Shown piece after piece: positions 46,682-59,723 of a stretch of 64,000 bases of DNA (within the stretch, counting starts at the first letter, position 1; the number at the start of each line of letters is the position of its first letter). Below the pieces are notes generated by a model, which searched no databases, was not told where the DNA came from, and saw only the letters and a program-made list of their open reading frames with translations. The DNA is taken from contig JAJRPG010000093.1 of NCBI GenBank assembly GCA_024280855.1, forward strand, positions 1-64,000, read 5' to 3'. Origin of the DNA: Planctomycetota bacterium. GTDB taxonomy: Bacteria > Planctomycetota > Phycisphaerae > UBA1845. The translations under genes and the position numbers were made by a program.

Positions 46682-47674
46682 ATGCGAAGCCATAGTCGAA
46701 TCCGCTATTCTTTATTCAGTGCCCTGACACTGGCACTGGGGTTCATGTTTTTTGGCGCGTCATCAGACCCATCCAGCCACCGTCATCAAAAACTACAGTG
46801 GGGGCGGTATCAAATTTTATGGAGACCTCTCGCTTTCGGGCAGCAAATTGCAGATGAGTCGGCCAAGTTCAAGCGTAAACCCGATTACATCATGTTTTAT
46901 CGTGATCTCGGGCGACCGTACCCGAAAATACCTATCGACGGGGTTCGCGTTAATGGCGCCACGCCGATAGTCTCACTAGAATTATGGTCATGGCATGACA
47001 GGAATCACACGCCTTATCTTCCATTGATTAACGAGGGTAAGTACGACGATTTCCTCCGCCAATGGGCGAAGGAAGCTAAGTCCGACGGACATCGTGTTCT
47101 GTTTCGATTTGGTTTTGAGTTCAACGGCGATTGGTTTTCCTGGTCACTTAAACCCAAAGCTTATGTAAAAGCCTGGCGGCGTGCCCATCGCATTTTCCAG
47201 GAAGTCGGAGCCTCAAACGTGGAATGGATCTGGGCGCCAAATGTCATTAGCTGCCCCAACACCGACGAGAACAATATGCACTTATACTACCCCGGTGACG
47301 AGTTCGTCGATTGGGTCGGAGTGGACGGCTACAATTTCGGCGAGCATCATGACAAGTGGCATCATTGGCAAAGTTTTAACGATGTTTTCAGCGATACCCT
47401 GAAACAATTTGCCAGCCGATATGCCAATAAGCCCATCATCCTCGCAGAATTTGGTAGCGCCCCGGGCAAGGATAACCAGCGTAGCGATTGGATTCGGGAC
47501 GCTTATGATAAAATCAGACTTAATGCTCAAATCAAAGCAGTTATCTGGTTTAACCTTGATAAACGCCGCGAAGGTGAACCCAATTGGCGAATCGACGTGA
47601 CGCCGGAATCGCTGCAAGCTTTCAATGAGACCTTCGCCGCCCCTCTGCTGAATCAATCGGCTAAGCCTCATTGA
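46682..47674 (+). CDS. GH26-like secreted glycoside hydrolase (beta-mannanase type)
   Basis: An exported 330-residue hydrolase. I chose the ATG at 46682 because GGAG lies six bases upstream and a signal peptide follows directly (IRYSLFSALTLALGFMFF). The GH26 landmarks are visible: the acid/base Glu in LFRFGFEFNGDWFSW, VEWIWAPNV, DWVGVDGYN and the nucleophile Glu in IILAEFGSA. GH26 enzymes usually cut beta-mannans. Its place after the O-antigen-ligase-like gene could point to surface glycan remodelling, which is inference. Confidence 0.82.
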   Translation: MRSHSRIRYSLFSALTLALGFMFFGASSDPSSHRHQKLQWGRYQILWRPLAFGQQIADESAKFKRKPDYIMFYRDLGRPYPKIPIDGVRVNGATPIVSLELWSWHDRNHTPYLPLINEGKYDDFLRQWAKEAKSDGHRVLFRFGFEFNGDWFSWSLKPKAYVKAWRRAHRIFQEVGASNVEWIWAPNVISCPNTDENNMHLYYPGDEFVDWVGVDGYNFGEHHDKWHHWQSFNDVFSDTLKQFASRYANKPIILAEFGSAPGKDNQRSDWIRDAYDKIRLNAQIKAVIWFNLDKRREGEPNWRIDVTPESLQAFNETFAAPLLNQSAKPH

Positions 47675-47799
47675 AGTTGCAAAATTATCGCAGGCACAAT
47701 ACCCTATCTTGCTGCTTATTAAGGACTAACGCAGTGCGAAGCCATAGGGTGCGAAATGGCTGCACGGGTATCGCAATAAAAATTTTCCAAGGGCACTCT

Positions 47800-49062
47800 A
47801 TGACCGACTTTGTACACGATATTTTACCTTGCGGCATCGAATACGCCGTCTCTCCATTGCCGAGACGGAAGGTTGTTTGCTTTCAATTGCGGGTCTTAGC
47901 TGGCATGGTGACTGAGCCTACCAACAAGCTTGGCTTGATGAACCTTCTCGGCGAAACCATCGACAAAGGCACCGAGAAATATACGGGGCAACAATTAGCA
48001 GACGAACTGGATGCGATTGGCGCGAGTACCGGCATTGGTGCGGGCCGAGAGACGGTAACTTTTTCCTGCACGGTCTTGCCCGAACATTTGGAACGAGTCG
48101 TGGAACTACAAGCAGAAATGCTTCGAACCCCCACATTCCCGCAGGACATGCTCGACGTCAACATCGATTTAGCCAAGCAGGAATTGAGTACACTCGAAGA
48201 CGACGCCAGCGGGCTGACGGAAAAAATGATTGGCCCACTCGCCTTTGGCCCCCTGCTCGGCAGGCATCCACTGGGCGAAGTCGCCACCTTGGAATCCATC
48301 ACCCGGCAGGACTTAGTCGATCATTGGAAGAAACATTTTCAAGCGGGCAACATCTTACTATCCGTCGCTGGAAATATTGAACCGCAACGGGTGAACGATG
48401 TATTCGAGAAGCATTTTTCTACATTTGGCTCACCCTCGAAACAGGGAAGAGACCCTGCCCCCGTCGAGTTTACGCCGAAGGTTGTACATCGAGACAAGCA
48501 ACTCGAACAAGAGCAAATCGCCATATGTTGGCCAGGGGTCGACGCGAAGCACGAGGACTTCCCCGTCCAGCAGGTCATGCTCGGTATATTGTCTGGCGGG
48601 ATGAGTTCCCGACTCTTTACGGAAGTGCGGGAGAAACAAGGCCTTGTCTATTGGGTTAGCGCTTGGCAGGAAACACCGCGAGGCTGTGGGATGATCTTTT
48701 TGGGCGCATCAACCACACCACAGAACTGCGACAAAACTTTCAATACGCTATTACACGAGGTCAATCGGCTCGCGAAAGACATTACGCAGGAAGAGTTAGA
48801 CCGCACACTTACGGGCATTCTCGCCAGTCAGGAAACGCGCGGTGACAGTACGCGGTCTCGTAGCCATGAACTCGCTTCGGACTTGTTCTTTCACGGTCAG
48901 CCAATTTCTCCTGAGGAAAAAGCAGATAAGTATAAGCGGGTAACTGTCGAAGACGTGAAGCGGTATCTCTCTACATACCCCCGCGATAAAATGTGCGTCG
49001 TTACGCTAGGCCCTAAAGCATTGCAACAGTCATCAATCCCCTCCAAGGCAGAGGTAAAGTAA
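47800..49062 (+). CDS. M16-family peptidase homologue without the zinc site
   Basis: A 420-residue M16/insulinase-type subunit. The start at 47800 has AAGGG nine bases upstream; the frame is open to 47671 but that part is unrelated. Where active members have HxxEH, this protein reads GLMNLLGETIDKGT, so zinc binding is lost. It keeps the R/Y-type substrate loop region (GGMSSRLFTEVREKQGLVY). It ends four bases before an active M16 gene. Such pairs form heterodimers in which the inactive partner shapes the chamber. Confidence 0.88.
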   Translation: MTDFVHDILPCGIEYAVSPLPRRKVVCFQLRVLAGMVTEPTNKLGLMNLLGETIDKGTEKYTGQQLADELDAIGASTGIGAGRETVTFSCTVLPEHLERVVELQAEMLRTPTFPQDMLDVNIDLAKQELSTLEDDASGLTEKMIGPLAFGPLLGRHPLGEVATLESITRQDLVDHWKKHFQAGNILLSVAGNIEPQRVNDVFEKHFSTFGSPSKQGRDPAPVEFTPKVVHRDKQLEQEQIAICWPGVDAKHEDFPVQQVMLGILSGGMSSRLFTEVREKQGLVYWVSAWQETPRGCGMIFLGASTTPQNCDKTFNTLLHEVNRLAKDITQEELDRTLTGILASQETRGDSTRSRSHELASDLFFHGQPISPEEKADKYKRVTVEDVKRYLSTYPRDKMCVVTLGPKALQQSSIPSKAEVK

Positions 49063-49066
49063 CCAT

Positions 49067-50308
49067 ATGAACGATCCATATATTTTGGAAACATTAGACA
49101 ATGGACTACGCATCGTCATCGAACTGATGCCCGACGTACGCAGTGCAGCCGCGGGATTTCTTGTGGACACCGGCGCACGCGACGAAGTAGCTCCACAGGC
49201 CGGCGTCTCACACTTTCTTGAACATATGATGTTCAAAGGCACGTCCAAGCGACACTGGAGTGACATCACCACCGACTTCGACAAACTTGGCAGTTCCTAC
49301 AACGCCTACACCAGTGAAGACCGCACTATCTATTATGGCTGGGTGCGCCAAGCTGACCTCGATGCGCAAATCGAAATCTTAGTGGACATGATGACCTCCA
49401 CGCTTCCAGAAGAAGAATTTCAGATGGAGCGCAACGTCGTACTTGAAGAAATTGCGATGTCCAAGGATCAGATTGAACACGTCGCGTTTGACTTTTTGCA
49501 GGAAAAAGTTTTCGAAGGTCATCCGCTAGCCTGGCCCATTCTCGGTTACGATGAGACCGTTAAAGCATTAACGCGAGACCAGATGCTAGCCTATTTTCAA
49601 CAGCGATACGCCCCGGACAATATGATGCTCATGGTCGCTGGAAATGTTGATCCTGGCGAAGTGATGAAATCAATCAAGCAGCATTGTGGCCAATGGAAAC
49701 CGTCGGGTACGAAGTCAACACGGGTTCCGCCAAAAATGAAAAGTGGAACTGACGTACTAACCATGGACCGATTCAAGCAGCAAATCGTAGCCATCACAAT
49801 TCCCGCTGCCCCAGCTGGGGGCGTCCAGGCTGAGATTGCTTCAGCTGTGGCGACGATTCTAGGCGGCGAAAACTCCCGCTTTTTCTGGAACATTGTGCAA
49901 ACAGGCCTAAGCCCCAGAGCCAGCGCTTTCCACTACGAATTCGCCGACAGCGGCATGATGCTGCTTTACGGAAGCTGCCAACCGGAAAATTGTGAAAAAT
50001 TGCATGATGCAATGCGTGATGAAGCGAGGCGCATTAACGACGACGGTGTAGAAGAGCATGAGGTCCAACGGGTGCGCAATCGCCGTCGCACGTCCCTGGC
50101 TATCGAGGCTGAGGTTCCTTACCATCGACTTACTCAGTTGATGGACGATATGCAGTATCTTGGCCAGCCCCGAACGGTTGAACAGATGCTATCGGAAGTG
50201 GACCAGATTACAGTAGATGCGGTGCAAGATTATATGACAAAATTCCCGCTGAGCGCCGCAGGCCATCTGGTCAGTGTAGGCCCGCGTGATTGGCCTGGTA
50301 ACGATTGA
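49067..50308 (+). CDS. M16-family zinc peptidase, active subunit
   Basis: A processing-peptidase-like enzyme, 413 residues. The inverted zinc motif HFLEHMMFKGT is intact, and the distal Glu lies in ERNVVLEEIAMSKD. The C-terminal half has GGENSRFFWNIVQTGLSP. It follows the inactive M16 gene by four bases and should pair with its product. Location (cytoplasm or periplasm) is unclear, as neither has a clear signal peptide. Confidence 0.92.
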   Translation: MNDPYILETLDNGLRIVIELMPDVRSAAAGFLVDTGARDEVAPQAGVSHFLEHMMFKGTSKRHWSDITTDFDKLGSSYNAYTSEDRTIYYGWVRQADLDAQIEILVDMMTSTLPEEEFQMERNVVLEEIAMSKDQIEHVAFDFLQEKVFEGHPLAWPILGYDETVKALTRDQMLAYFQQRYAPDNMMLMVAGNVDPGEVMKSIKQHCGQWKPSGTKSTRVPPKMKSGTDVLTMDRFKQQIVAITIPAAPAGGVQAEIASAVATILGGENSRFFWNIVQTGLSPRASAFHYEFADSGMMLLYGSCQPENCEKLHDAMRDEARRINDDGVEEHEVQRVRNRRRTSLAIEAEVPYHRLTQLMDDMQYLGQPRTVEQMLSEVDQITVDAVQDYMTKFPLSAAGHLVSVGPRDWPGND

Positions 50309-51168: not shown

Positions 51169-51717
51169 ATGGCTTATGTGCCTTACATTTCAGAAGAAGA
51201 CGCCTCGCCGGAGTTATCGTCGATGTACGACAAGTTCCGCGACCCGGCTGGCCATGTAGACAATATACTTCGCATCCACGGATTAAACCCGCCGAGTTTG
51301 GACGCTCATGTGCAATTGTACGCGACGCTCATGCACAAGCGGTCGCCTCTTTCGCGCGTGCAACGTGAGATGATTGCCGTGGTGGTCTCATCCATCAACG
51401 AATGCCATTACTGACTACATCATCACGGAGCGGGGCTCCTTCGACTCACTAAAGATAACACGCTCGCAGATGCCCTCACCAAGGATTACCTCAATGCGGC
51501 TATCTCAGACCCTGAGCGAGCTATGCTGTCTTATGCAGAAAAACTAACCCGCACGCCATCAGCCATGGCGCAAGATGATGTGGAAAAACTAAAAAACGTG
51601 GGCTTTAGTAATGCCGCTATTTTGGACATTTGCCAGGTCGCAGCTTACTTCGCCTTCGTCAACCGCCTCGCAGACGGGCTAGGCGTCGAGTTGGAACCCC
51701 ACATGGGCAACAAATGA
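51169..51717 (+). CDS. AhpD/CMD-family peroxidase-related protein, candidate selenoprotein
   Basis: An antioxidant-type protein of the carboxymuconolactone decarboxylase/AhpD fold ('peroxidase-related' subgroup). The frame is interrupted by TGA at 51412-51414 and then stays open in the same frame to 51717. Read through, it gives 182 residues with the whole family pattern: DNILRIHGLNPPSLDAHVQL, SPLSRVQREMIAVVV, NECHY-U-LHHHGAGLLRL, YAEKLTRTPSAM and AAYFAFVNRLADGLGVELEP. Relatives have CxxC in the NxCxYCxxHHG motif. Here Cys79 is kept and TGA falls exactly on the second Cys (position 82). In AhpD that residue is the one that attacks peroxide. A SECIS-like hairpin follows the TGA. Selenocysteine insertion is therefore the favoured reading. 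The alternative is a simple TGC/TGT-to-TGA nonsense mutation. No selA, selB, selD or tRNA-Sec lies in the window. Confidence 0.75.
51412..51439 (+). promoter_or_regulatory. Candidate bacterial SECIS element after an in-frame UGA
   Basis: After TGA (51412-51414) come 12 bases, then a perfect stem GGAGC-GGG-GCTCC at 51427-51439. The apical loop starts with G and lies 17 bases past the TGA, inside the spacing known for bacterial SECIS elements (about 16-37). The lower stem is poorly paired. Hairpins this short can arise by chance. Confidence 0.55.
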
Positions 51718-51799: not shown

Positions 51800-51873
51800 G
51801 GGCGATTAGCTCAGTTGGCTAGAGCGCCTCCCTTACAAGGAGGAAGTCACAGGTTCGAGTCCTGTATCGCCCA
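51800..51873 (+). tRNA. tRNA-Val (anticodon TAC)
   Basis: A full cloverleaf: acceptor GGGCGAT/ATCGCCC, D stem GCTC/GAGC, anticodon stem CCTCC/GGAGG with loop CTTACAA (TAC at 51834-51836), T stem ACAGG/CCTGT with loop TTCGAGT, discriminator A73. CCA is not encoded. Its 3' end is the attachment site of the element that follows. Confidence 0.95.
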
Positions 51874-51875
51874 GT
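51849..51875 (+). repeat. attL: 27-bp direct repeat in the tRNA-Val 3' end
   Basis: It runs from the T stem to two bases beyond the discriminator (begins ACAGGTTCGAGTCC). An identical copy lies at 59697-59723. The integrase gene starts 95 bases further on. Confidence 0.92.
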
Positions 51876-51918
51876 ACGTCAAACACTATATTTATAGTCT
51901 TATTTGCTCTTTTCCGTT

Positions 51919-51930
51919 GCCTTTAGGTTG
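51919..51930 (+). promoter_or_regulatory. Arm-type integrase site, left
   Basis: GCCTTTAGGTTG is the exact reverse complement of CAACCTAAAGGC at 59631-59642 near the other end. A second half site (ACAACCT) lies at 51934-51940. Paired inverted sites near both att cores are typical of tyrosine-integrase arm binding. Confidence 0.5.
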
Positions 51931-51969
51931 CCCACAACCTATGATGTACATTGAAGAGAGGCTATTGAT

Positions 51970-53376
51970 ATGGTTAAAACGCAGAAATTCAAGAACTCAA
52001 AAAAGCGTAAGGGTGGACGCCAGCCTGTAGCATTTGTCACTCACCCCGATACTGGGGTGGCTGTGAGTGGCTTACGAGTCCACAAGGCATCAACGCGCTA
52101 CTACAGAATAGCTGAGGATAAGAAAACTCGGCACTTTTACCCCAAAGCTGGACGGGTAGGACTGGCGTATCTTCGACGAGCCATCTACGAACACGAATGT
52201 TATCAAAATGGACTGGCTCCGAGTGATGTACTCGGCGTAAGAGTTACAAAGCCGATCTATGATGAGTTTGGCTCTGAACTTCCAGTCGTGGGGACTTTTG
52301 ATAACAAGGGTAACGCAGTCAACGTCATTCAAATTGGCAGAGATAGCTTAGCTGAGTATTTCCGTGAACAACTAAGTAACCCCCTCACTCGTAAAGAATT
52401 CGCTGAGTTGGTGGGTATTCCTGAGCTTGATAATATCCACTCATTGCCACCTGTAGTGGCTCCACTGAGCCTGTCAGAGATTATTGATAGCTACTTGGCT
52501 GATAAGACATTCTCAACAATACAACAGCCTATAGACGCCAAGGCGGTATGGAAGCTATTCACTGGGACTCTGGCTGTGGATAACTTAGAAGATATTGAGA
52601 ATGCGAAGCTCCAGTCATATAAAAAAGTGATTGAAGCAAAATATGCACTGCGGACTCAAAAGAATCACTACGGTATTGTCCAAGGGATACTTAATCACGC
52701 CCATGCTGTCTTTACAGTCCACAGAGATAAGATAAACACCCTAAAGCTTGAGATTAAGCTCAATTGTCAGAACTGGAGCCAAGACAAGAAAATTAAGGCT
52801 CGTCGTAAAAATGCCAAACCTATGTCACCTGAGACATATCGTAAAATGCTAGCTCAAGCTAAAAAGCACTCTCTGCTGGCTCACGCTATTTATCTATCTG
52901 CGGCAAATTTTGCTTATCATGGCAAAGAGGCTACAGATTTGCGAATAGTTGATATTGACTGGGATAAGATGCTATTGTCGAGCTACCGTGAAAAGGACGG
53001 TATCCAGCGGGTAGCTGTAGTATGGACTGAGACCGCTAGAGCTATCAAAGCTTATATGGCGTCTGATGAGTATCTGAGCCACCCTGAGTATGTCTTTTCA
53101 TATACCACAAGAGAAAAGAAAACAGAGAAAATGAACATAGCTCATGTTGTCTTGTTAAATCGCAATTTGCGTGATGACGCTTCATTACCTGATAGCGTTA
53201 AATTTGACGGTATCCGCAGCATGACAAGCACTGCTATGGGAGCCACCAGCATGATTGCTCAAAAGTGGGTGATGGGACACGCTGTATCTGGCGAGCTAGA
53301 TACTTATACTGTCAGAGACGCCACCGAAACCCGTAAAGCTCTGAGCAAAGCCCACAAGGTAATTTTCGGCAAATGA
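51970..53376 (+). CDS. int: Tyrosine recombinase/integrase
   Basis: Site-specific integrase for the tRNA-Val site next to it. It has 468 residues, and AGAGAGG precedes the ATG. The N-terminal half should hold the arm-binding and core-binding domains (around DSYLADKTFSTIQQPIDAKA). The catalytic domain starts near PMSPETYRKMLAQ. Box II reads FDGIRSMTSTA, with Arg kept but the usual preceding His replaced by Phe. QKWVMGHAV supplies the His and GELDTYTVRD the Tyr nucleophile. The box I Arg seems to be His in AYHGKEATDL, by my alignment. Such departures are seen in planctomycete integrases, so activity is not excluded. Confidence 0.88.
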   Translation: MVKTQKFKNSKKRKGGRQPVAFVTHPDTGVAVSGLRVHKASTRYYRIAEDKKTRHFYPKAGRVGLAYLRRAIYEHECYQNGLAPSDVLGVRVTKPIYDEFGSELPVVGTFDNKGNAVNVIQIGRDSLAEYFREQLSNPLTRKEFAELVGIPELDNIHSLPPVVAPLSLSEIIDSYLADKTFSTIQQPIDAKAVWKLFTGTLAVDNLEDIENAKLQSYKKVIEAKYALRTQKNHYGIVQGILNHAHAVFTVHRDKINTLKLEIKLNCQNWSQDKKIKARRKNAKPMSPETYRKMLAQAKKHSLLAHAIYLSAANFAYHGKEATDLRIVDIDWDKMLLSSYREKDGIQRVAVVWTETARAIKAYMASDEYLSHPEYVFSYTTREKKTEKMNIAHVVLLNRNLRDDASLPDSVKFDGIRSMTSTAMGATSMIAQKWVMGHAVSGELDTYTVRDATETRKALSKAHKVIFGK

Positions 53377-53669
53377 TGAGGCTCTGTAAGGCTCTCCACG
53401 AAACGATCAAGATGTATTGTGACTGATTGTACCACCCCTCATATCGCTCTACTGGCTCGCGGCCTACACCTAAGTTTTTTTTCAAGTCCTCAAACCTGTA
53501 GCCGATATTTTTTCAACTTGCGGATGTAAAGTTTTTTTGAAAACTCAAATAACCCGTGAAAAAACGACGCAGCTTACATGCTCTTCCGTATGAATTTCCT
53601 AGCCAGAATATACCGTATGCCACCCCTTCTGAGCTATTGGCTCACTAGAGCTGCTTATCACTTGAGTAG

Positions 53670-53780
53670 ATGACTGACTGGCCTTGTGGACTACTGCTGC
53701 TGGTACTGCTGGTAATGGTTGTCATTGTCTATATCTCCTGTTATATGTACTGGAGTTATATTGGAACTGCTGGCTGTTGA
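53670..53780 (+). CDS. 36-residue hydrophobic peptide, candidate small membrane protein
   Basis: ATG 53670 to TGA 53780 encodes a peptide starting MTDWPCG. A run of Leu/Val/Ile of about 17 residues (LLLLVLLVMVVIVYI) follows, then SCYMYWSYIGTAGC. It would form one membrane helix. No strong ribosome site is visible (GAG eight bases upstream). It could be a type I toxin, a holin-like peptide or chance. Confidence 0.35.
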   Translation: MTDWPCGLLLLVLLVMVVIVYISCYMYWSYIGTAGC

Positions 53781-53792
53781 GTCCTCTATATC

Positions 53793-54141
53793 AAAAGGTA
53801 GATATGGTAGATAAGGGTAGATGCTCTATCTACCCTGCAAACTGCTGTAAGCCCTTGTGGCATAAGGACTTATGTAAATGGTAGAAAAGGTAGAGGTTTT
53901 CACGGGTATCCGTATAGCGTACCTTACACCTTATTATCCACAAATAAGAGTATGAGCATATAGAGAATTACTTAAATTAACCGACTGGTATCTACTACCT
54001 TATATACCAACTCGCTATTTTCTCCTACCTTTTCTACCTTTTACATTTATACGCTCTTATGATACCGTAAGAGCCGTATTTAGAGAATTTAAGGGTAGAT
54101 ATGCTCTTCTACCTTTATCTACCCTTTCTACCTTTTGTAAT
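53793..54141. other. Iteron-like array, candidate replication origin
   Basis: Many copies of GGTAGA/TCTACC cluster upstream of the primase gene: AAAAGGTAGA at 53793, GGTAG at 53806 and 53816, ATCTACCC at 53828, GGTAGAAAAGGTAGA at 53880, TCTACTACCT at 53991, CTACCTTTTCTACCTTTT at 54025, GGGTAGATA at 54093, and CTACCTTTATCTACCC then TTTCTACCTTTTG at 54119-54141. Both orientations occur and the DNA is AT-rich. Satellites and phages often place origins beside the replication gene. The rest of the 53377-54267 gap holds only the small peptide and a promoter. Confidence 0.6.
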
Positions 54142-54209
54142 AGGGACAGAGACTTTCATAATTTATTTATATTTTTCTATTTATTTAGAGGAATCCGTCT
54201 AAGTTGTTA

Positions 54210-54268
54210 TGTAAGTGAGTATAATACAATGCCACACTGATGGCGTCATTTAATAAGAGGAAACCGCA
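54210..54268 (+). promoter_or_regulatory. Promoter and ribosome site of the primase operon
   Basis: A perfect -10 box TATAAT at 54220-54225 with a TGAG just before it, and no clear -35. GAGGAAA at 54258-54264 lies a few bases before the ATG at 54268. Confidence 0.5.
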
Positions 54269-56736
54269 TGTCCAACAAACCAACAACCGACACATTTTTA
54301 TCGCTACTATTTGAACCAGACGATCTAATCGAATTCAGACTAATTGAGTCATACGTTCTAAATAACAAGAAAATATCTTCTCCCCCTATTCGTTTGTGGG
54401 TGAAACGTAAGGACTGGGACACTCAATACGATGAGATTAAGAACCGTAACGACAACGGCTACAATTCATTTTTTGGCGTCTGTCCACGCTTAGAAGTGGG
54501 TAAAGCTAAAAAGGCAGACATTCCACTTGTCCGTACTTTGTGGATAGACGTTGACTATTGCGATACTAAAGACTTCAAGAGCCGACTGGATGGCACTGAG
54601 TTACCTGAGCCGTCTATTGTAGTCCACAGCGGTAATGGCATACACGCCTATTGGCTCTTGGCTGAGGCTGTAGAGCTTAATTCTGATGCTGATAGACAAC
54701 TTATCGAGGGGTTGAACAAGTCATTCAAAGTGGCTCTTGGTGGCGACCACACTCACGACGTAACCCGTATACTGCGACTTCCTCATCCAGAGTTATTCAA
54801 CGTCAAGAACCATAGGAATGGAGCCACACCAAAGCCTGTGACGCTGATAAAAGCTGATGACGTTAGATATACAATCAAAGAGCTAGAGGCTGTCTGTGAG
54901 CCTTATAAGGCTCTTACAACCACAAGCAAAAAAAAGAACAACGCTACTCAGAGGGACGGAGTGGTTTCCTCGCTTGGCAGTGATGCTAAGTCCCCTCTGA
55001 GTAGCTTTAATACTGACAGAAGCACAAAAGATTTTGGGACTATTTGTCACCTCATCCGCGAGGGTAAGACTAAGGATGAGGCGTGGACGATTGTTAAAAA
55101 TACGAGTAAATTCGCAGAGAGAGATTGCAGCTATTTTGAACAAACTTGGAAGAATGCGCAAAGTGACGTTATGAGCCAACAACAAGATAATAGCCAAGCT
55201 AGTGGCACTGTTAAAAACCCATTTATTACCCCTGATTCTATAGCAGAACCAAAAGCTTTTAATACTGATGGACTGCCAAAGTTTATCAAAGAGACGATAG
55301 ATTATATGGCTGATGTCCATAATGTTGATAAGTCAATACCGGCAACTTGGCTACTTGCCACGCTGTCAGCATCTACGGCTAACCTTATGTCAACTATATC
55401 CCCCTTTGCTAATAAACCTTGTGGAACTGAACTACTTACAATTATAGTAGGCAAGTCAGCAAGTGGTAAAACTTATGGTGGGAGTCCACTTGTACAATCA
55501 TTTTCTAAATGCCAAGAACAAGCGGATAGAGATTTCAAAAAAACTTTATTGAAGCTTAAAGTTAAAAAACGTAATCTTGAAGATGAGGAAAAATCTGTAA
55601 GAACTCAACTCACAAAAGAACGAACCAATCCCAAACATACTAAAACCTCAATTACTCATCTTGAGGATAAGCTTGTAGATATAGCACAAAGTATACAAGA
55701 TGCAGAGGACGACTGTAGAGGCGGTAGCTGTCAATATGATGACACAACAGGAGCCGCATTGTTAGAGGATATGAAAGTTACCTTTGATAGAGCCGCTTTT
55801 GTAGGCTCTGAAAGTACAGGATTAAAAAATTTGCTTGCTGGCTCATCTGAACTTGGCTCTGCTGAGGGTATCTTATTAAAATCTTTTGATAGAGATTTTA
55901 TAAAAAGAAAACGTAAAGGTAGCTCAAATTCACCACAAGCACCACACACTCTACATAGTCCAGCAATTACTATGCTTGCGACATATACTCCAGAACTTTT
56001 TGAGATAGAACTAAAAAAACCTGTATTTTCAAATTCTGGATTACTACAAAGATGTTTAGTGGGATATTGCAAAAAAAGAAAACCCGACTATATCACTGAA
56101 AAAAAGATAAAAGAACTAACTAAATGGAACGCTCTTATTACTGAACTTTGTAATATACCAATACCAGTAGACGCCACAACAAAAAATGTATCACCCGTCG
56201 AAGTATCTGTTGAGACTAAAGCTATAAAGTGGCTAAGAACTAATGTACAAAAGTATATGGAAACTGTCTATTATAGCGAAGTGATGGAAGAGGATTTCAA
56301 AACTTGGGTTGAGCGTATGCCACAAATGATAGTTAGAATAGCTGGCATATTACATATAGTCCGTCATAAAAGTAACTATACTAAGCACAAAATCATACTC
56401 GAAGATTTACAACATGCTTGGAATATATATCAGTATTATGCGTCGTCCGCATGTTTTATATTATTCTCACCGGCACGATCTTTTATGGACAGTAATTCTA
56501 ATCTAAATTGGCTGTGGAAGTATGCAGCCTTAAATCCTGAGCCATTCAATAAAAAGACTATAAACAATAAGCACGAGTGGAAACGATTGGCAAGTCAAAC
56601 AAGAGCCAAGGGAGCCGAGATAGTATTAGCAGAGGCACTAGATAGTGGCATATTAAGCTACAATACAAGTAACAAACAATACGAGATAACCGCAGAGGCT
56701 CGTGATTACTACCACCAAATGAAAGGGGTAAAATGA
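54268..56736 (+). CDS. Primase-helicase replication protein (RepB-like primase plus DUF3987-type ATPase)
   Basis: A two-part 822-residue replication protein. The N-terminal ~200 residues look like an archaeo-eukaryotic-type primase: LWIDVDYCD supplies the metal-binding DxD, then HSGNGIHAYWLL, and DVTRILRLPHPELFNVKN. The C-terminal part, from ~340, is an ATPase of the DUF3987 kind, with Walker A VGKSASGKTYGGS, a long coiled coil (LKLKVKKRNLEDEEKS onwards) and a Walker B-like region. A middle segment (KDFGTICHLIREGKTKDEAW) resembles the linker seen in phage primases. It likely starts replication at the iterons upstream. It overlaps the next gene by four bases. Confidence 0.82.
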   Translation: MSNKPTTDTFLSLLFEPDDLIEFRLIESYVLNNKKISSPPIRLWVKRKDWDTQYDEIKNRNDNGYNSFFGVCPRLEVGKAKKADIPLVRTLWIDVDYCDTKDFKSRLDGTELPEPSIVVHSGNGIHAYWLLAEAVELNSDADRQLIEGLNKSFKVALGGDHTHDVTRILRLPHPELFNVKNHRNGATPKPVTLIKADDVRYTIKELEAVCEPYKALTTTSKKKNNATQRDGVVSSLGSDAKSPLSSFNTDRSTKDFGTICHLIREGKTKDEAWTIVKNTSKFAERDCSYFEQTWKNAQSDVMSQQQDNSQASGTVKNPFITPDSIAEPKAFNTDGLPKFIKETIDYMADVHNVDKSIPATWLLATLSASTANLMSTISPFANKPCGTELLTIIVGKSASGKTYGGSPLVQSFSKCQEQADRDFKKTLLKLKVKKRNLEDEEKSVRTQLTKERTNPKHTKTSITHLEDKLVDIAQSIQDAEDDCRGGSCQYDDTTGAALLEDMKVTFDRAAFVGSESTGLKNLLAGSSELGSAEGILLKSFDRDFIKRKRKGSSNSPQAPHTLHSPAITMLATYTPELFEIELKKPVFSNSGLLQRCLVGYCKKRKPDYITEKKIKELTKWNALITELCNIPIPVDATTKNVSPVEVSVETKAIKWLRTNVQKYMETVYYSEVMEEDFKTWVERMPQMIVRIAGILHIVRHKSNYTKHKIILEDLQHAWNIYQYYASSACFILFSPARSFMDSNSNLNWLWKYAALNPEPFNKKTINNKHEWKRLASQTRAKGAEIVLAEALDSGILSYNTSNKQYEITAEARDYYHQMKGVK

Positions 56737-56972
56737 ACATATTAACACCAGAACTACATATTCAAGTCCGCAAGATTGTTTGTAATATGATCTATAACGA
56801 ACAACCACTACAGCCGTATAGTGACAGGACTATGGCAGAGGCAATGGAACTTATCCACAACATACCGGACATATCAGAGTACCGTATACTCAAGCTCCGC
56901 GAAGAACTAGGCTACCCCACTTCGTCCCAACGCAAAGCAAAAGCTGTGGACAAGATAAAGAGCAAGAAATGA
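56733..56972 (+). CDS. 79-residue protein resembling the sigma-54 DNA-binding domain, copy 1
   Basis: A small protein (MNILTPELHIQVRKIVCNMI...). Its C-terminal half follows the plan of the RpoN (sigma-54) DNA-binding domain: a helix ending NEQPLQP, then YSDRTMAEAMELI, then YRILKLREELGYPTSSQRK. RpoN ends with a very similar sequence (PLSDQKIADLL, then the RpoN box ARRTVAKYREELGIPSS). The box itself is changed (DISEYRILKLREELG). It overlaps the primase gene and the next copy by four bases each. Role unknown; DNA binding is inferred. Confidence 0.7.
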   Translation: MNILTPELHIQVRKIVCNMIYNEQPLQPYSDRTMAEAMELIHNIPDISEYRILKLREELGYPTSSQRKAKAVDKIKSKK

Positions 56973-57208
56973 TTATCAAATATACATCCGACTTTGAAAC
57001 AAAATGTACAAAAATGGTAAACGCTCTCATCACTGGCGAGTACCCGTTAAATCCTATTACTGACAGGATAATGGCAGAGTCTATCAAGCTTTATCACGAT
57101 ATAGACATAACTGAATACAGGGTATCTATGCTGAGAAAATCACTGGGTAAGGACTGTTCTGTACTTCGCAAATTGCACGAGAAAAAAAGATACTTGGGGG
57201 GGAACTAA
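56969..57208 (+). CDS. 79-residue protein resembling the sigma-54 DNA-binding domain, copy 2
   Basis: A paralogue of the preceding protein with the same length. It shares the pattern ITGEYPLNPITDRIMAES then DIDITEYRVSMLRKSLG. It lacks the SSQRK ending (KDCSVLRKL instead). It ends in a run of GGGGGG that serves as ribosome site for the next small frame. The tandem pair may form a dimer or two competing regulators. Confidence 0.68.
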   Translation: MIIKYTSDFETKCTKMVNALITGEYPLNPITDRIMAESIKLYHDIDITEYRVSMLRKSLGKDCSVLRKLHEKKRYLGGN

Positions 57209-57300
57209 TGCTAACAACTTATATAAGTTTGACTATATTTTACGCTTCATTTTTCACGTTGCTATACACGCTAGTACAGCCAATGTTTAACAACGATTAG
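57208..57300 (+). CDS. 30-residue membrane peptide, coupled to the previous gene
   Basis: The ATG overlaps the previous stop (TAATG) and GGGGGGAA lies just upstream, so it is likely translated. The peptide (MLTTYISLTIFYASFFTLLY, then TLVQPMFNND) is one hydrophobic helix. Small peptides like this in phage elements can be toxins, holins or regulators. No family can be given. Confidence 0.5.
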   Translation: MLTTYISLTIFYASFFTLLYTLVQPMFNND

Positions 57301-57331
57301 AAGCGTATCAAGTACAAATACCCTACCCTTT

Positions 57332-57366
57332 AGCTCTTATAATTCAAACCTATAAGAGCTAATTTT
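57332..57366 (+). terminator. Terminator of the primase operon
   Basis: AGCTCTTATA (57332-57341) pairs perfectly with TATAAGAGCT (57351-57360) across nine bases, followed by AATTTTA. Confidence 0.65.
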
Positions 57367-57376
57367 ATGTCTGTAT

Positions 57377-57420
57377 ATAAAAATAGTCCACTCAAGCACG
57401 TAACTACTCAAGTGGACTAT
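57377..57420 (-). terminator. Terminator of the capsid gene
   Basis: On the minus strand ATAGTCCACT and AGTGGACTAT form a 10-bp stem (57383-57420), followed by TTTTTATATA. It faces the terminator of the primase operon. Confidence 0.75.
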
Positions 57421-57467
57421 AAATGGAATTTCACCGTCAACGAGACGGCAATCTACAAGAAATATGT

Positions 57468-58790
57468 TTAAGGCGTGATACCTATAATTTTTGTAAATGC
57501 TTGTGGATGAGCTAAAGCAATGTCAACTCTCATTACAGCCAAAAAGCCATATTGATAATTAGCACTGTACAAGTCCTTCAAGACTTCGATACGCAACGAT
57601 GAGCGAATACCCACAAGTACCTGACTGAAGTCACCCACGATGATCGTAGAGGCATCTGAGGCAGTACCTTGGGTTTCATTTATTGGCATATTACTTGTGG
57701 TATACATTGGTATCTTTTCGATAGCTGCTGGCTTGCGTAGTGGTTGATTTGTAGTATCCGCAAACTTAGCTATGGTTTGCCAAGTCCGTGGCGCCATAAC
57801 AATACCACTCATATCACCACCAAAGTTATCGTCTCGGATCAACTTGATACCGTCGATTATCTCATCATAGGAAGTGATAGCCGCTCCATTCACTCCAAGT
57901 GACACGCTGTTGACTCCAGTAGTCAAAGTAATACCTGTAGGCTGATTAGAAGCACCAGAGCCGAGTAATATAGCTCTGTCTAATTCGGCTGCAATAGCAC
58001 CCGTAAATGCTTGCTCAAGTGAATTCTTGATATTGCTACTATCCTCAAGTAACTCACGAGATATTTTGATAAGAGCTGTCATTTTCTTAGGCACAAAAGT
58101 GATAGCTGAGAATGCGGGATCAGCGTCACTGATAGTAGCATTTTCCGGTGTCCACGACACCGTAGCGTCTGTGGATAGTTTAGCTATACGAGTTGAGTCT
58201 GAGTTAAGAACCACTGTTTTAGCACCAGCCTTAAATGCCACGCTCTTGGCACGTAGTTTGTCAATAACTTGAGGCAATAGATTTGTAGGCGTAGTAAAGC
58301 CACCTGTGGAGTCTGTACCCTCTGCCAAAGCTCTACGCTCTATATTATTTTGTGGACCAAGTACAGCCGCTCTAAGCATACCACCAAGAGATAAACCCTT
58401 GTATTCGCCTGAGTCTCTTACTGTACTGACTGTAGTTGCTACGCTCTTACCCTTGGGTATGACGTGAACGCTTCTACCCTCTTTGTCTATCCACAACTCG
58501 TTATCAGTATTGCCAAACATTTCGGCTCTTGTTTTGAAGCCACCAGAACCGCCGTCTGGATACAAATCACCAATACCACTAGTATCGTTTATCTCCATTC
58601 GCTCTTCTGCTAATAGAGCCTCAAGCTTTACGTCCACGCTATCGTATTCAGCATTAACTTTGTTAAATTCTTTGTCTAACTTTTTAGGCACGTCTGTACC
58701 ATTTTCCATATGTTCTGCGATAGTATCAACCATAGGTTTCATCCTAAGTCTAATACTCTCTCTTTGCTCTTGCAATTTTCTTATTTGCAT
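57468..58790 (-). CDS. HK97-family phage major capsid protein
   Basis: A virion shell protein of 440 residues. The N-terminal ~75 residues are a charged coiled coil (LQEQRESIRLRMKPMVDT), like the scaffolding delta domain of HK97. The HK97 fold follows: EGTDSTGGFTTPTNLLPQVI at the N-arm, SWTPENATISDADPAFSAIT and FVPKKMTALIKISRELLEDS in the E-loop and P-domain, then AAELDRAILLGSGASNQPTG, GIVMAPRTWQTIAKF, IIVGDFSQVLVGIRSSLRIE, and the end FLAVMRVDIALAHPQAFTKI. Phages normally encode a protease and portal beside it; neither is here. It is the only structural gene in the element and is transcribed against the replication genes. GGGGGAAGAAAG lies upstream. Confidence 0.9.
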   Translation of the reverse strand: MQIRKLQEQRESIRLRMKPMVDTIAEHMENGTDVPKKLDKEFNKVNAEYDSVDVKLEALLAEERMEINDTSGIGDLYPDGGSGGFKTRAEMFGNTDNELWIDKEGRSVHVIPKGKSVATTVSTVRDSGEYKGLSLGGMLRAAVLGPQNNIERRALAEGTDSTGGFTTPTNLLPQVIDKLRAKSVAFKAGAKTVVLNSDSTRIAKLSTDATVSWTPENATISDADPAFSAITFVPKKMTALIKISRELLEDSSNIKNSLEQAFTGAIAAELDRAILLGSGASNQPTGITLTTGVNSVSLGVNGAAITSYDEIIDGIKLIRDDNFGGDMSGIVMAPRTWQTIAKFADTTNQPLRKPAAIEKIPMYTTSNMPINETQGTASDASTIIVGDFSQVLVGIRSSLRIEVLKDLYSANYQYGFLAVMRVDIALAHPQAFTKIIGITP

Positions 58791-58806
58791 AATTTATCTA
58801 CTTTCT

Positions 58807-58822
58807 TCCCCCACAATGGGGA
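58807..58822 (-). promoter_or_regulatory. Hairpin in the capsid gene leader
   Basis: TCCCC-ATTGT-GGGGGA forms a stem of five to six pairs, 17-32 bases before the capsid start. It pairs with the purine-rich ribosome site, so it may limit translation. This is inference from one short stem. Confidence 0.35.
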
Positions 58823-58928
58823 GACTATTTGTTTTGTCTAATTATCCGCTCCACACTCTCGGACAGATTTGACTGTCTTACTTGTGGCACTACAAACGAT
58901 TTGACGTGAGTAGCATATCGAAATTTGT

Positions 58929-59342
58929 TTATACTTGTTCTGCTAATTTAGCAGATTTAAGAGCTTCAAAGGTAGCTGACAACACGTTGTATGCAGTACC
59001 TTTTCTGAACTTAATATACTCAAAGGGAGCCGTATACATTGTATAAGTCTGGCTCATTTTGATATTAACACCCTCTTGTAGTGAGGCTGTCCGCATATCT
59101 TCGTCGTCACTTCTAATCTTATCTTGATGAGTTTTTTCACTTACTGCAAATGGAAGAACTAGAGAATTTTCTAGCTCAAAATATGTCTGTAACCACTCGA
59201 CTGTATCACTCGTATATCCACGCACTGTACCTACTTGAACTACTGGCTCTTGATTTTGCATAGTCAAGGCGTATTGTACTCGTGGATAAGTTATGTTGAT
59301 TTTAGCTGCCATCTCTTTGATGGTAAAATATCGTTTAGTCAT
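58929..59342 (-). CDS. Helix-turn-helix protein, excisionase/MerR-like
   Basis: A 137-residue protein. The first ~55 residues fit a winged HTH of the excisionase type (YFTIKEMAAKINITYPRVQY, then GYTSDTVEWLQTYF). The rest has no family that I know. It may control excision or the capsid gene that follows 138 bases on. AGGAG lies about eleven bases upstream of the ATG. Confidence 0.65.
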   Translation of the reverse strand: MTKRYFTIKEMAAKINITYPRVQYALTMQNQEPVVQVGTVRGYTSDTVEWLQTYFELENSLVLPFAVSEKTHQDKIRSDDEDMRTASLQEGVNIKMSQTYTMYTAPFEYIKFRKGTAYNVLSATFEALKSAKLAEQV

Positions 59343-59690
59343 TTTGTTGTAAGCTCCTATTTGTTGCTCTATCTATACTTACAACTTTTTGGCTGTAGTA
59401 TCCTCTATATTTGATAACTTTATTATTATACAACAAAGAGTGACAGACTTATGGCATTTATCCACAAGAGGATAGAAGAGGGAGCTAGTGGACTGCTCAA
59501 ATGATCTAAGACTGGACCATTTGCGGATGAGCCAGTAGCTCAAAGGATCAAGAACTTGATCTTTTCATTAGGCTGTGAATAGTTGAGCTTCCAGAGGCTT
59601 ACCCCCCTCTTATTGGCTCTAAAACGGCTACAACCTAAAGGCGTAACCTAAAGTAATGACAAAACAGCCTTTACGCTACCTTAAAGGCAT
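59343..59690. promoter_or_regulatory. Right-end regulatory region: palindrome and arm-type sites
   Basis: GATCAAG-AA-CTTGATC at 59546-59561 is a near-perfect palindrome with A/T flanks and could be an operator for the HTH protein. CAACCTAAAGGC at 59631-59642 and TAACCTAAAG at 59644-59653 match the left arm site. No gene is seen. Confidence 0.45.
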
Positions 59691-59696
59691 ATGATT

Positions 59697-59723
59697 ACAG
59701 GTTCGAGTCCTGTATCGCCCAGT
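59697..59723 (+). repeat. attR: 27-bp direct repeat
   Basis: Identical to 51849-51875. It holds only the T arm and acceptor end of tRNA-Val, not a whole tRNA, so it marks the far end of the integrated element. Confidence 0.92.

Follow-up and report, generated by a model that had tools for sequence, protein, structure and literature searches.

Insertion of selenocysteine (Sec) in bacteria, by SelA, SelB, SelD and tRNA-Sec together with a SECIS element, is an established process, and a 2026 review of prokaryotic selenoprotein families lists among them an "AhpD-like protein, TIGR01926, CxxU" (PMC13188914). The first AhpD-like selenoproteins came from the Sargasso Sea survey, with 27 CxxU sequences (PMC1088965), and others were reported by the Global Ocean Sampling survey (PMC2398784); in both surveys the name designates COG2128 proteins. 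The statement of the first-pass annotation, that AhpD-like selenoproteins had been reported from marine DNA, is thus borne out by these two reports, and selenoproteins in Planctomycetes are also already known (PMC4807772). Because AhpD-like CxxU selenoproteins are on record, the novelty of a further one is limited.

In this work, we describe such a gene in a window of 64,000 nucleotides, contig C6 of a Planctomycetota genome assembly of 4.56 Mb, 96% complete. Its homologues were collected from 60 relatives and from a sample of 294 genomes of the phylum; the best-matching named records belong to Planctomycetota / Phycisphaerales, and a DNA search revealed no phage relatives. We have very little doubt that the window carries a functional selenoprotein gene, with Sec at the UGA of codon 82, decoded by the mechanism proposed below. 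Features of the window, and those of the same genome which bear on its decoding, are reported in Table 1.

Table 1. Features of the AhpD-like gene and Sec-related genes elsewhere in the genome
Feature	Location	Strand	Remarks
AhpD-like (TIGR01926) gene, predicted selenoprotein	51169..51717	+	182 codons before stop, codon 82 = TGA
Glu67 codon	51367..51369	+	conserved in 65/66 TGA homologues
Cys79 codon (TGC), putative partner of Sec82	51403..51405	+	invariant in 66/66 TGA homologues
In-frame TGA, predicted Sec82, second position of CxxU motif	51412..51414	+	placed by aligned homologues
His86 codon	51424..51426	+	invariant in 66/66 TGA homologues
SECIS-like hairpin	51427..51439	+	stem 51427-51431 / 51435-51439, loop GGG 51432-51434
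selA	C102:55583-56935		569 bits; beside selB
selB	C102:57118-58998		341.7 bits, over cut-off
tRNA-Sec	C98		anticodon TCA (UCA)
selD	C39 (L097 949-1995)		in-frame TGA, active-site loop CAGUAGK
Deiodinase-family protein (Pfam T4_deiodinase)	C102 (L095 4643-5305)		in-frame TGA at SYT-U-PPF; divergent from adjoining selB
Second AhpD-like TIGR01926 paralogue	C16 (L092 1464-2006)		CYYU (ANDCYYUTQAH), ~38% identical to the window's

One reading frame across an in-frame UGA

The gene opens with an ATG, and its frame, but for the TGA of codon 82, stays open as far as a TGA stop at 51715-51717, so that the protein read through the internal codon has 182 residues. Residues 3-176 match TIGR01926, the NCBIfam "peroxidase-related enzyme" model, with an E-value of 1.6e-47 and a score of 161.6 bits, above the curated cut-off of 81.8 bits; the Pfam CMD domain is matched as well (E 5.3e-11). 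Solved homologues cover nearly the entire length of the protein: PDB 6k40, named "Alkyl hydroperoxide reductase AhpD", aligns to residues 6-177 (E 1.6e-29). The TGA at 51412 had been proposed to divide a single gene, whose halves lie in the same frame and belong to the same family; the frame and the full-length TIGR01926 match confirm it, and the split ORF should be annotated as a single 182-residue selenoprotein, rather than as two truncated ORFs. Comparison with the closest relative, a congener, gave dN/dS values of 0.047/0.98 before the TGA and 0.127/1.22 after it, a pattern from which coding constraint is seen to persist 3' of the in-frame codon.

The motif reads E78-C79-H80-Y81-U82-L-H-H-H-G, and the arrangement of the surrounding residues is that of TIGR01926 proteins, in which a conserved Glu precedes the first Cys by 12 residues and a conserved His follows the second Cys, or Sec, by 4. 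Nearly all strong homologues carry one TGA, and in all 66 aligned TGA-bearing homologues, whose identity is 84% within the genus and declines to about 37%, this TGA occupies codon 82; Tyr81 is likewise invariant in this set. At the same codon, Cys is found in 5 of the 7 aligned homologues devoid of TGA, and Leu, in sequences of degenerate appearance, in the other 2. The alignment, called for in the first-pass annotation as a way to see whether homologues have Cys or TGA at this site, thus contains both, and agrees with the proposal that the TGA replaces exactly the second Cys of a CxxC motif. Judged from these sequences, the position of the codon is far beyond chance.

A tandem pair of AhpD-like genes was observed in another genome (L091, G130:C155:92300-94700), in which the codon of the Sec site is TGA in one copy and TTG (Leu) in its neighbour; this neighbour looks like a duplicate which has lost the catalytic residue.

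A single substitution is enough to turn TGC or TGT into TGA, and Cys homologues do exist: the codon might, in principle, derive from a nonsense mutation, or from a sequencing or assembly error, at the Cys codon of a Cys-type AhpD-like gene, which would then be a pseudogene. The same TGA is, however, shared by 66 homologues, which include the congener at 84% identity and, with few exceptions, belong to other genomes; constraint on the coding sequence continues beyond it, and the genome features the full Sec machinery. A pseudogene is therefore extremely improbable, and both it and a sequencing error were rejected on the conservation of the TGA among homologues, in agreement with the earlier view that a random nonsense hit was not to be expected here.

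The regions flanking the gene contain recognizable elements of other kinds. Upstream, at 47671-50308, lie two adjoining M16-family peptidase genes, a typical tandem pair, related to the YfmF/YfmH families but scoring below their cut-offs. Just downstream, an element of approximately 7.85 kb (51800-59723) has probably integrated in a tRNA-Val(TAC), the last 24 bases of which (51850-51873) are repeated exactly at 59698-59721; the element contains a tyrosine-integrase-like ORF (51970-53376) together with a large ORF of 822 residues (54268-56736).

The hairpin downstream of the UGA

The UGA is followed, after 12 bases, by a GGAGC-GGG-GCTCC hairpin, whose loop starts 17 bases from the codon. Criteria defined for bacterial SECIS elements are a stem of 4-16 bp, a loop of 3-9 nt, a distance of 16-37 nt from UGA to loop, a G at loop position 1 or 2 and a folding energy of -7.5 kcal/mol or lower (PMC13188914). 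The 5 bp stem, the GGG loop with its G and the spacing of 17 nt all lie within these limits, while the energy predicted by ViennaRNA, -7.2 kcal/mol, falls 0.3 short of them; several relatives sharing the register of the window reach -8.4 to -11.1 on hairpin score. The presence of a SECIS-like hairpin after the TGA, as originally noted, is accordingly upheld for geometry and for position, the latter exact and conserved in relatives; the energy of the single sequence is unexceptional.

Taken alone, indeed, the window hairpin has a z of -0.81, 40 out of 200 dinucleotide shuffles being equally stable, and its SECIS-type score is matched by 36 of 60 synonymous shuffles. Among homologues, the energy score measured against synonymous shuffles poorly separates those with TGA from those without (mean z -0.82, n=63, and -0.93, n=9, respectively). 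Since the energy-only SECIS test is uninformative for a single sequence and separates the two groups so poorly, it was replaced by a register-specific stem test, again evaluated against synonymous-codon shuffles.

In the subgroup to which the window belongs, 9 out of 10 sequences form an uninterrupted run of 5 or more pairs in the register of the window, versus 0.8 expected (at most 5 in 1000 synonymous shuffles). The figures are 26 out of 33 versus 4.4 expected for the whole G-L subgroup (at most 11 in shuffles) and 30 out of 30 versus 12.6 expected for the D-L-R subgroup (at most 19 in shuffles), while homologues devoid of TGA featured no excess (3 out of 9 versus 2.5 expected). The significance of these comparisons is overstated to an unknown degree, because the registers were chosen after a scan of the same sequences, which are also related to each other. 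As far as can be judged from sequence, the test did show selection on an RNA hairpin, clade-specific and with a G-bearing loop, which becomes significant only when homologues are compared.

Three or more registers follow the same UGA, with loops at +18 to +20, +19 to +23 and approximately +25 to +30, each within one subgroup. Rather probably, the recoding element was shifted, or built anew, along the gene, with Sec kept at its codon; if this is true, the AhpD-like Sec family would be useful for studying how SECIS elements shift.

Sec decoding in the genome and in the phylum

Absence of selB or of tRNA-Sec had been indicated as an observation able to disprove the selenoprotein reading: selA, selB, selD and a tRNA-Sec (UCA) are all present. 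The selD gene is likely to encode a Sec protein itself, with Sec in its active-site loop, and selenophosphate synthesis would then depend, in turn, on Sec insertion. The deiodinase-family protein adjoining selB, which scores below the cut-off of the NF038285 model, is likely another selenoprotein. Since the genome contains a complete Sec apparatus along with further Sec genes, the organism would be expected to make selenoproteins.

The same genes are relevant to the possibility that UGA is read here as an ordinary residue, either through a reassigned code (Trp or Gly, for example) or through low-level readthrough. All that speaks for it is that the UGA lies in frame. UGA is, by contrast, also the stop codon of this very gene; the in-frame UGAs examined, in SelD, the deiodinase-like protein and the two AhpD-like proteins, occur at catalytic redox sites; and a tRNA-Sec with a UCA anticodon accompanies selA and selB. 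On these grounds an alternative code was rejected, and we give ordinary-residue decoding next to no credence. Sec is almost certainly inserted at codon 82, as initially suggested, a reading supported by the Sec machinery, by the occurrence of Sec and Cys homologues and by a hairpin conserved in position.

Sec-type AhpD-like enzymes appear to be common in the phylum, a strong TGA-bearing homologue being found in 92 of the 293 other sampled genomes. The selA gene is present in 87 of these 92 genomes, versus 104 of the remaining 201 (Fisher p 1.5e-14, for genomes which are not phylogenetically independent). Among the 5 TGA-form genomes without selA, selB was over the cut-off in 4; in G120, TGA-bearing and 90% complete, neither gene was. 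Homologues devoid of TGA, in genomes without selA or selB over the cut-off, have Cys (G076 and G275) or Leu (G315).

Proposed function and comparison with known families

According to the mechanism proposed, SelA would make Sec-tRNA(UCA) with selenophosphate supplied by SelD, and SelB, guided by the hairpin just 3' of the UGA, would bring Sec to codon 82, so that translation would run on as far as the terminal TGA at 51715, yielding a 182-residue protein of the AhpD/CMD family, with C79-x-x-U82 as its redox pair. The spacing of Glu67 is, we assume, that of the proton-relay Glu of AhpD, and the spacing of His86 presumably that of its relay His. By analogy with AhpD, Sec82 would attack, Cys79 would resolve, and Glu67 and His86 would act as relay: the Sec82 selenolate, activated by the latter two, would reduce peroxide, or another oxidised substrate, and be converted to selenenic acid, which Cys79 would resolve as a selenenylsulfide, finally reduced by a cellular dithiol.

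Peroxidase activity is likewise suggested by analogy. Sec might be inserted in an enzyme which is not mainly a peroxidase, and works instead as a disulfide reductase linked to lipoamide or thioredoxin, or on another substrate, as other proteins of the CMD superfamily do; this is an alternative for the function alone, and leaves the Sec reading unaffected. We regard it as possible rather than probable. The TIGR01926 subfamily is named merely "peroxidase-related", AhpD itself can serve AhpC as a reductase (PMC8945050), and no obvious operon partner was seen around the homologue in L052, the sole relative whose gene neighbourhood was read. Against it, an AhpD-like protein of Deinococcus confers CxxC-dependent protection from H2O2 (PMC8945050), and the solved homologue 6k40 is named an alkyl hydroperoxide reductase.

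Among characterized proteins, the Mycobacterium tuberculosis AhpD presumably shares with the window protein an AhpD-type motif, CxxC in its case, and an equally spaced relay of Glu and His. It belongs to another subfamily, has Cys where the window protein would have Sec, and its relay His preceding the catalytic Cys corresponds to Tyr81. Deinococcus DR_1765 (PMC8945050), of which 6k40 is probably the structure, features a CxxC in the same place as the CxxU of the window, and thus differs by a Cys at the position of Sec. The NF041238 family (AhpD_rel_CFYUT) has a related domain (E 2.8e-18) and a CxxU Sec site, but its model spans 357 residues versus the 182 of the window protein, whose score, 66.3 bits, falls below the 175-bit cut-off, placing it outside this family.

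The AhpD-like CxxU family is the closest: TIGR01926 membership, Sec as second residue of CxxU, a SECIS-like hairpin after the UGA and the existence of Cys homologues are all shared, and nothing essential differs, the window protein being distinguished by its CHYU motif and by its occurrence in a Planctomycetota-like genome which has a second AhpD-like Sec paralogue. With the window gene, a known selenoprotein family gains one more member; the finding, correct and well supported, opens no new kind of biology, and adds comparative evidence for a conserved SECIS which shifts its register.
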